Assembly: GCF_007954405.1 (NCBI RefSeq)
Contig: NZ_CP042344.1
Location: 1,612,001 to 1,676,000, forward strand
Direction of reading: 5' to 3'
Origin: Comamonas flocculans
Lineage (GTDB): Bacteria; Pseudomonadota; Gammaproteobacteria; Burkholderiales; Burkholderiaceae_C
Length of the DNA: 64,000 nt
The notes under the pieces were generated by a model. It made no database searches. It was not told the DNA's origin and was given only the letters and a program-made list of their open reading frames with translations. The translations under genes were made by a program, and so were the position numbers. Below, in pieces: positions 45,580-55,586 of this stretch (its first letter is position 1; every line of letters starts with the position of its first letter).

Positions 45580-46614
<1,035 letters not shown>

Positions 46615-52378: not shown

Positions 52379-55120
<2,742 letters not shown>

Positions 55121-55124
55121 CGAT

Positions 55125-55162
55125 CTCACCTGCGCGGAACGTGCGCGACGTAAACAGGTGAG
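55125..55162 (-). promoter_or_regulatory. Shine-Dalgarno/anti-Shine-Dalgarno pair controlling metH
   Basis: On the minus strand CAGGTGAG (55132-55125) is the metH ribosome-binding site. CTCACCTG (55162-55155), at the 3' edge of the riboswitch, is its perfect 8-bp complement, with 22 nt between. The first three bases of CTCACCTG also belong to riboswitch helix P1, so the two pairings exclude each other. This would give translation ON when SAH is bound. Confidence 0.75.
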
Positions 55163-55230
55163 CGCCGTTGGAGGAAATCCGCGTTTTCAAGCCTGACGGG
55201 CACGAATGGCCCGCTGCAGCGCTCCTTGAA
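55157..55230 (-). promoter_or_regulatory. S-adenosylhomocysteine (SAH) riboswitch
   Basis: Minus-strand sequence matches my memory of the SAH aptamer: AAGGAGCGCTGC at the 5' end, a TCAGGCTTG segment in the middle, and AACGGCGCTCACC at the 3' end. P1 pairs GAGCGC (plus 55219-55224) with GCGCTC (55160-55165). P2 is a CGGGC/GCCCG hairpin (55197-55213). CAAG (55225-55228) and CTTG (55188-55191) replace the commoner CGAG/CUCG pair, a compensatory change. SAH riboswitches usually control ahcY, metF or metH, in agreement with this place. Confidence 0.88.
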
Positions 55231-55334
55231 AAGGTTAGGCAATTTTATCGATGAGTGGCGCGCGCTGCAGTGCAGGGGCCAATGAGGCGCCGTAAGATGC
55301 CTCATCGTTTTGCCAGACATCACAAGGCCTCATC

Positions 55335-55586
55335 ATGCTCAGCTTGCTTGGAACCGCGCTTATCGGACTCGTCGTCGGCTTCATCGCCCGGGCCATCAAA
55401 CCCGGGAACGACAAGATGGGCTGGATCATGACCTGCGTGCTGGGCATCGCGGGCTCGTTCGCCGCCACCTATGCAGGGCAGGCCCTGGGGTGGTACCAGG
55501 TGGGGCAGTCGGCGGGCTGGATCGCCTCGGTGGTCGGAGCGATCGTGCTGCTGTTGATTTACGGCCTCCTGCGCAGGAAATCCTGA
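55335..55586 (+). CDS. GlsB/YeaQ/YmgE-family membrane protein
   Basis: 83 residues with three hydrophobic helices (LLGTALIGLVVGFIARAI, WIMTCVLGIAGSFAATYAG, WIASVVGAIVLLLIYGLL). GFIARAI-x-PG-x-D and GIAGSF match the transglycosylase-associated family of small stress-response membrane proteins. Full length for the family (about 80). It stands alone between the divergent metH leader and the convergent glycosyltransferase. Function of the family is unknown. Confidence 0.9.
   Translation: MLSLLGTALIGLVVGFIARAIKPGNDKMGWIMTCVLGIAGSFAATYAGQALGWYQVGQSAGWIASVVGAIVLLLIYGLLRRKS

Follow-up and report, generated by a model that had tools for sequence, protein, structure and literature searches.

A probable SAH-ON riboswitch controlling translation of metH2 in Comamonas flocculans

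The leader of metH2 in Comamonas flocculans is best read as an SAH-ON riboswitch that controls translation of this gene, and we regard this reading as very probably correct. Without SAH, the tail CUCACCUG at the 3' end of the aptamer would pair with CAGGUGAG, so that the Shine-Dalgarno (SD) sequence of the start codon ATG 55120 would be buried. With SAH bound, the pseudoknot helix P4 would capture the CUC at the start of the tail, and the mask hairpin, its base lost to P4, would open and allow ribosomes to bind the metH2 SD. At the level of sequence, the aptamer, the overlap of P4 with the mask, the recurrence of the mask and its compensatory changes can be seen directly.

Results

The SAH aptamer and the regulated gene

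The covariance model of the SAH riboswitch, RF01057, matches the minus strand at 55233-55153 with 67.6 bits and an E-value of 2.6e-10 (cmscan), against a gathering cut-off of 37 and over the full model (positions 1-78). It is the sole Rfam family to reach its gathering threshold within the window, by which we mean the whole 64-kb stretch of DNA that was analysed. A preliminary description of this DNA had placed an SAH riboswitch before metH and had suggested a search with the covariance model; the match to the complete model bears this out, and the coordinates given at the time, 55120-55230, are about right. Both helices of the RF01057 consensus structure are present on the minus strand. P1, UUUUCAAG/CUUGAAAA, comprises 8 bp (55232-55225 with 55191-55184), seven of which belong to the Rfam consensus structure, and is completely paired, while P2, CGGGC/GCCCG (55213-55209 with 55201-55197), has one non-standard pair at its loop end. 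In the Rfam alignment two pairs of P1 are altered on both strands, with UCAAG/CUUGA in the window against the consensus CCGAG/CUCGG, which is the compensatory CAAG/CTTG change that had been pointed out before.

The Rfam structure line for RF01057 does not draw P4, which we take to be formed in this riboswitch by a 5' GAGCG strand and a 3' CGCUC strand. By sequence, the helix has 6 bp here, GAGCGC/GCGCUC (55224-55219 with 55165-55160, minus strand). Among 184 aptamers the strands pair as GAGCGT/ACGCTC in 85, GAGCGT/GCGCTC in 79, GAGCGC/GCGCTC in 17 and otherwise in 3, with U-A, U-G or C-G as the last pair in 181 of the 184. The name P4 for a helix of this riboswitch class appears in a table of PMC7392346, in the part of that paper available to us. 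Selectivity for SAH over SAM is a defining trait of the class, and we infer that the metH2 copy binds SAH. A TAAAAT sequence at 55242-55247 on the minus strand, 8 nt upstream of the aptamer, could be a -10 box; a consensus scan of 55050-55400 returned no full promoter. As a whole, the leader folds no better than shuffled sequences (z = -0.53, with 59 of 200 shuffles equally stable).

The gene downstream, 52379-55120 on the minus strand, encodes 913 amino acids if the start is taken as ATG 55120. Its Pfam matches (PF00809, PF02607, PF02310, PF02965) correspond to the pterin-binding, B12-binding and activation domains of methionine synthase, and it matches the TIGR02082 metH profile at positions 323-1182 only. 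Since the first half of MetH is missing from it and the homocysteine S-methyltransferase half is encoded separately by metH1 (45580-46614, plus strand, 344 amino acids, PF02574), it is metH2, one half of a split metH, that is regulated. The earlier name metH was right as to methionine synthase and is made more precise, the product corresponding to the C-terminal portion of a MetH that is split in two. The two halves lie on opposite strands ca. 6 kb apart, and the riboswitch is found at metH2 only. Of the two RF01057 matches in the genome one precedes metH2 and the other ahcY, both SAM-cycle genes; metH1 has no SAH riboswitch match of its own. The closest named relatives of metH2, from Comamonas, Oryzisolibacter and Alicycliphilus, share 79-80% identity with it.

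The masking helix

The perfect 8-bp match CTCACCTG/CAGGTGAG that had been noticed between the 3' flank of the aptamer and the ribosome-binding site is real, and its 3' member is the SD of ATG 55120. On the minus strand, the tail at 55162-55155 is perfectly complementary to the strand at 55132-55125, with one further G-U pair possible; the masked strand contains the metH2 SD and ends 4 nt before ATG 55120. When the 30 nt that follow the 12-nt tail were base-shuffled 20,000 times, 0.06% of the trials gave an 8-bp Watson-Crick match with the tail. Such an 8-mer lies at most 25 nt upstream of the first ATG in one of the 120 open reading frames of at least 150 amino acids in the window, a set that surely includes many non-genes and in which the matching frame was not named. 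The stretch CUCACCU of the tail (55155-55162) resembles UCACCUCC, which we take to be the 16S anti-SD, and therefore the aptamer tail may be a stand-in for the ribosome's own anti-SD sequence.

The preliminary description had the masking helix share three bases with P1. Three bases are indeed shared (55162-55160, CUC), but the helix that they also end is P4; P1 (55232-55225 with 55191-55184) has no base in common with the mask. ViennaRNA ensembles, which carry neither pseudoknot energy nor ligand, were computed for the own leader. The mask forms with a probability of 0.91-0.99 in the free leader, of 0.72-0.93 with P1 and P2 forced and P4 left free, and of 0.04-0.05 with P1 and P2 forced and the P4 strands reserved. 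The probability of an unpaired SD rises from 0.002-0.03 in the free leader to 0.31-0.37 with the P4 strands reserved. With other ends of the leader the figures are weaker (free mask 0.75, SD window 0.15 to 0.28). We therefore reject P1 as the competitor of the mask: folding with P1 forced, which had been suggested as a check, leaves the SD masked, and P4 must be reserved as well before the mask opens. Because the mask persists with P1 and P2 forced and is nearly lost with P4 reserved, it is P4, rather than P1, that is mutually exclusive with the mask in silico. The claim that the full switching logic can be read from the sequence holds on paper, once the pseudoknot P4 takes the place of P1 as the competitor.

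The aptamer could also be real and act on transcription, through a terminator or Rho, with the SD complement as a by-product. An action of Rho would be compatible with the sequence, whereas an intrinsic terminator is not apparent: a consensus scan found no terminator-like site in 55050-55400, and the mask hairpin is followed by AUCGAUG with no run of U. In addition, the strand paired by the tail is the SD at its usual spacing, and we consider control of transcription very unlikely.

Recurrence of the mask in related leaders

RF01057 was surveyed in 299 genomes of the host's bacterial family and in a separate draw of 229 genomes from the wider class. It is present in 293 of the family genomes, with two copies in 236, one in 52 and three in 5 (counted by eye), and in 92 genomes of the wider class, with one copy in 85 and two in 7 (also by eye), three of these seven belonging to the host's family. 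As most genomes of the wider class that carry RF01057 have a single copy and the best 29 class-wide loci all precede ahcY, the metH copy looks to be largely a feature of the host's family.

Leaders were collected from 80 named metH2 loci and from the best-scoring RF01057 matches listed for further genomes, so that weak aptamers are under-represented. Of 232 loci, 213 have a loose aptamer match and 16 have none, while 3 had been set aside beforehand; 198 were classed by gene. A stricter filter retained 73 metH leaders, 34 of which stem from the 80 named loci, and 110 ahcY leaders. Locus L009, with its riboswitch before metH1, lies outside the 73 metH leaders, and L158 is absent from the folding set.

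The tail has a downstream partner over 6 or more contiguous pairs in 68 of the 73 metH leaders. By type, 49 leaders have a direct mask, 18 a distant helix and 5 no 6-bp helix. The mean helix score is 18.47, compared with 10.48 for dinucleotide-shuffled downstream sequence, and in 55 of 73 leaders the own partner scores above the mean of the partners from other leaders; since related leaders are not independent, these figures are not to be read as probabilities. Helix positions 1-6 are nearly invariant, the first three being fixed by the aptamer as well, and therefore give little covariation signal. Position 7 lies outside the conserved aptamer and is not fixed by it; it is paired in 54 of 73 leaders, whereas 500 shuffles averaged 36.1 and reached 45 at most. 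Position 8 is paired in 45 of 73 (shuffle mean 38.7, maximum 46).

The pairing of SD and anti-SD, which was to be compared across homologous leaders according to the preliminary description, thus recurs, and it does so with compensatory changes. The mask reads CTCACCCG/CGGGTGAG in L069 and L180 and CTCACCCA/TGGGTGAG in L101. In L158, L179 and L202 it reads TCATCGAT/ATCGATGA, TCGTCA/TGACGA and TCGTCG/CGACGA, respectively, and includes all or part of a start codon. With P4 reserved, the probability of an unpaired AUG increases from 0.45 to 0.91 in L179 and from 0.02 to 0.33 in L202, with the SD window hardly altered. L009 has a further version, CTCACT/AGTGAG; its RF01057 match (989-1069, 46.6 bits) precedes metH1, and metH2 follows ca. 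1.8 kb downstream of the riboswitch.

The complementarity might instead mirror two sequences that are kept independently, namely GCUCAC in the aptamer tail and an AGGUGA-type SD. The near invariance of helix positions 1-6 and the likeness of the tail to the presumed 16S anti-SD UCACCUCC would fit such a coincidence. Against it, GGTGAG precedes metH2 in 25 of the 34 riboswitch-bearing loci, compared with one of the 42 that lack the riboswitch (four loci cut at contig ends excluded), the exception being L030, which has AGGTGAG before metH2 and no RF01057 match at the gathering threshold. Moreover, pairing at position 7, which does not belong to the aptamer, exceeds that in all shuffles, and the altered tails CTCATCGAT, CTCGTCA and CTCGTCG of L158, L179 and L202 are accompanied by changed partners, now ATCGATGA, TGACGA and CGACGA. 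We therefore judge two independently fixed sequences to be a highly improbable explanation.

The relatives also bear on the start codon. GTG 55129, which is part of the masked strand and shares the reading frame of ATG 55120, was considered as a start; ATG 55120 is preferred because in 47 of the 49 proximal leaders the start lies 1-10 nt past the helix. A spacing of 4 nt between mask helix and start, as here, is the commonest (25 of 49). An in-frame GTG within the masked strand occurs in 35 of 55 leaders and disturbed the spacing count in that set.

Reserving P4 raises the probability of an unpaired SD in all 49 proximal leaders, from 0.152 to 0.373; as the reservation removes three mask pairs by construction, this is a sign of compatibility rather than proof. 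We infer the ON direction from the conflict between mask and P4 in these models and by analogy with ahcY, which the SAH riboswitch class is said to up-regulate in the available part of PMC7057144, citing Wang 2008. In the reverse arrangement SAH would turn translation off, the bound aptamer freeing ACCUG to pair with the CAGGU of the SD. Five of the eight mask pairs do survive P4 on paper, and the mean mask probability over the 49 proximal leaders is still 0.335 with P4 reserved. However, this mean has come down from 0.944, the mask of the own leader retains only 0.04-0.05, and activation is what the same source, as far as available, gives for ahcY; an OFF switch is barely credible to us.

A direct mask is not the only arrangement. 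The 6-bp helix is absent from five of the 73 metH leaders (L020, L024, L025, L185, L217). L020 and L025 keep the tail CTCACCTCCATC, and their SD regions, GCAGGACGAGCC and GCAGGATGAGCC, pair with it over 3-4 contiguous bases only; another expression platform may be at work there. In 18 metH leaders (L028, L032, L036, L040, L041, L045, L096, L099, L100, L110, L128, L143, L165, L180, L181, L189, L193, L219) 20-68 nt separate the end of the helix from the start codon, which makes a direct SD mask impossible and resembles the ahcY layout. The idea that a direct SD mask is universal among SAH riboswitches is not supported. From the 29 best loci of the wider class 25 tails (23 distinct) were scored, leaving aside L239, L244 and L257 with unclear starts and L241 with a long tail, and only 6 of the 23 distinct ahcY tails beat both controls. 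These six, L233, L245, L247, L250, L252 and L261, have long masks of quite different sequence. Most tails are short, and the own score exceeds the mean of other leaders in 10 of 23.

The riboswitch at metH2 tends to accompany a separation of the metH halves. Of the 80 named metH2 loci, 34 have the riboswitch and 46 were not counted as having it at metH2. Among the latter, metH1 lies within the fetched stretch in 40. In 38 of these 40, all but L009 and L079, the end of its match is no more than ca. 180 nt away from the match to metH2, as judged by eye. For the 34 with the riboswitch, the fetched stretch includes metH1 in 17 cases, in 14 of which it is at least 0.8 kb away. It is this difference, adjoining halves without and distant halves with the riboswitch, on which the association is based.

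The ahcY leaders

The SAH riboswitch before ahcY in the own genome (L002) is located at C1:884409-884490 on the minus strand, with the ATG of ahcY at 884338. The 110 ahcY leaders comprise 109 distinct tails, of which 106 were long enough for analysis and 103 were folded. In 102 of 106 the tail pairs with a GGTGAG-like strand over at least 5 bp, and this strand is not the SD. Three helices can be drawn: A, the tail CUCACC with GGUGAG; B, which uses the next tail bases, CCACGC or CCCGCA, with GCGUGG or UGCGGG; and C, e.g. GGGUUCC with GGAGCCC, which can cover the ahcY SD. Helix B scores 18.31, compared with 11.90 for shuffled sequences and 13.05 with other leaders, and the own score is the higher one in 97 of 106. 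Helix C is weak: its mean score is 14.83, while shuffled sequences give 12.70 and the sequences of other leaders 13.29; the own score exceeds the others in 63 of 99, and the 95% level of the shuffles is reached in 13 of 99. Some bases are common to A and B in 94 of 106 leaders, and to B and C in 91 of the 93 leaders whose C score is at least 11; this overlap is partly forced by the ranges searched for B and C.

These helices suggest a relay in which A would exclude B, B would exclude C, and C would hide the ahcY SD; SAH would break A, B would then form and C would open. With P1 forced and P4 reserved in the 103 folded leaders, the mean probability of A drops from 0.52 to 0.045, with a decrease in 97 leaders, and that of B climbs from 0.274 to 0.608, with an increase in 92; both changes partly follow from reserving tail bases. 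Helix C goes from a mean of 0.456 to 0.244 (lower in 78) and the unpaired SD from 0.278 to 0.373 (higher in 84). All four changes occur jointly in 61 of 103 leaders. In 34 of 103, including the own ahcY leader, the helix picked as C has a free probability below 0.05. For the own leader, the probabilities before and after are 0.86 and 0.006 for A, 0.03 and 0.55 for B, and 0.10 and 0.43 for the unpaired SD; the picked helix C is unformed in either state of the folding, and the minimum-energy fold has an interrupted hairpin over the SD which persists when P4 alone is reserved. As the changes in A and B arise in part by construction and the own helix C does not form, the ahcY relay is a lead and not a result. 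That in the host's family one aptamer tail drives two ON machines per cell, a direct mask of SD or start codon at metH2 and a three-helix relay at ahcY, is a tentative model to which we give somewhat less than an even chance. L241, an ahcY leader from the wider class whose long tail extends over 84 nt to the ATG, has the pairings CTCTG/CAGAG and TCTCCACCGG/CCGGTGGAGA, which resemble helices A and B of the family.

Discussion

The proposed masking helix gives a riboswitch whose target gene was already known a concrete expression platform that can be tested by mutation. An accumulation of SAH would raise ahcY and metH2 together, presumably with the physiological aim of recycling homocysteine to methionine. 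The two genes stand for two steps from SAH to methionine, and our analysis suggests that they are wired to one metabolite through the same aptamer and different downstream RNA. In this genome only one half of the split enzyme, metH2, is under the riboswitch.

An expression platform is reportedly proposed in the founding paper on the SAH riboswitch by Wang et al. in 2008. Neither the metH platform nor the ahcY relay is described among the open-literature matches listed, a scope that lies outside Wang et al. 2008 and the 2010 structure paper, or in the available parts of PMC4239095, PMC10907184, PMC7057144, PMC3766115, PMC2864571, PMC11014391, PMC11188199 and PMC7392346. The type of sensor and its place before metH are already known. 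Like other members of RF01057, the metH2 copy has the full model with the P1, P2 and P4 strands and a SAM-cycle gene downstream; its aptamer is no different in kind, and the stretch that follows the aptamer is here read as a direct SD mask. In the available part of PMC4239095, MetH is a taxon-specific member of the SAH-riboswitch regulon of the Comamonadaceae, with the same aptamer family and target enzyme as here. That part gives no expression platform for metH, whereas one has been worked out here for Comamonas flocculans, in whose genome only the metH2 half carries the switch. Finally, SAM/SAH (RF01727), SAM-II and SAM-III are, according to the available part of PMC10907184, translational riboswitches that occlude the ribosome-binding site. 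They regulate access to the SD, as is proposed for the metH2 leader; however, their ligand-bound fold takes up the SD, whereas the bound fold of the metH2 riboswitch should set it free.
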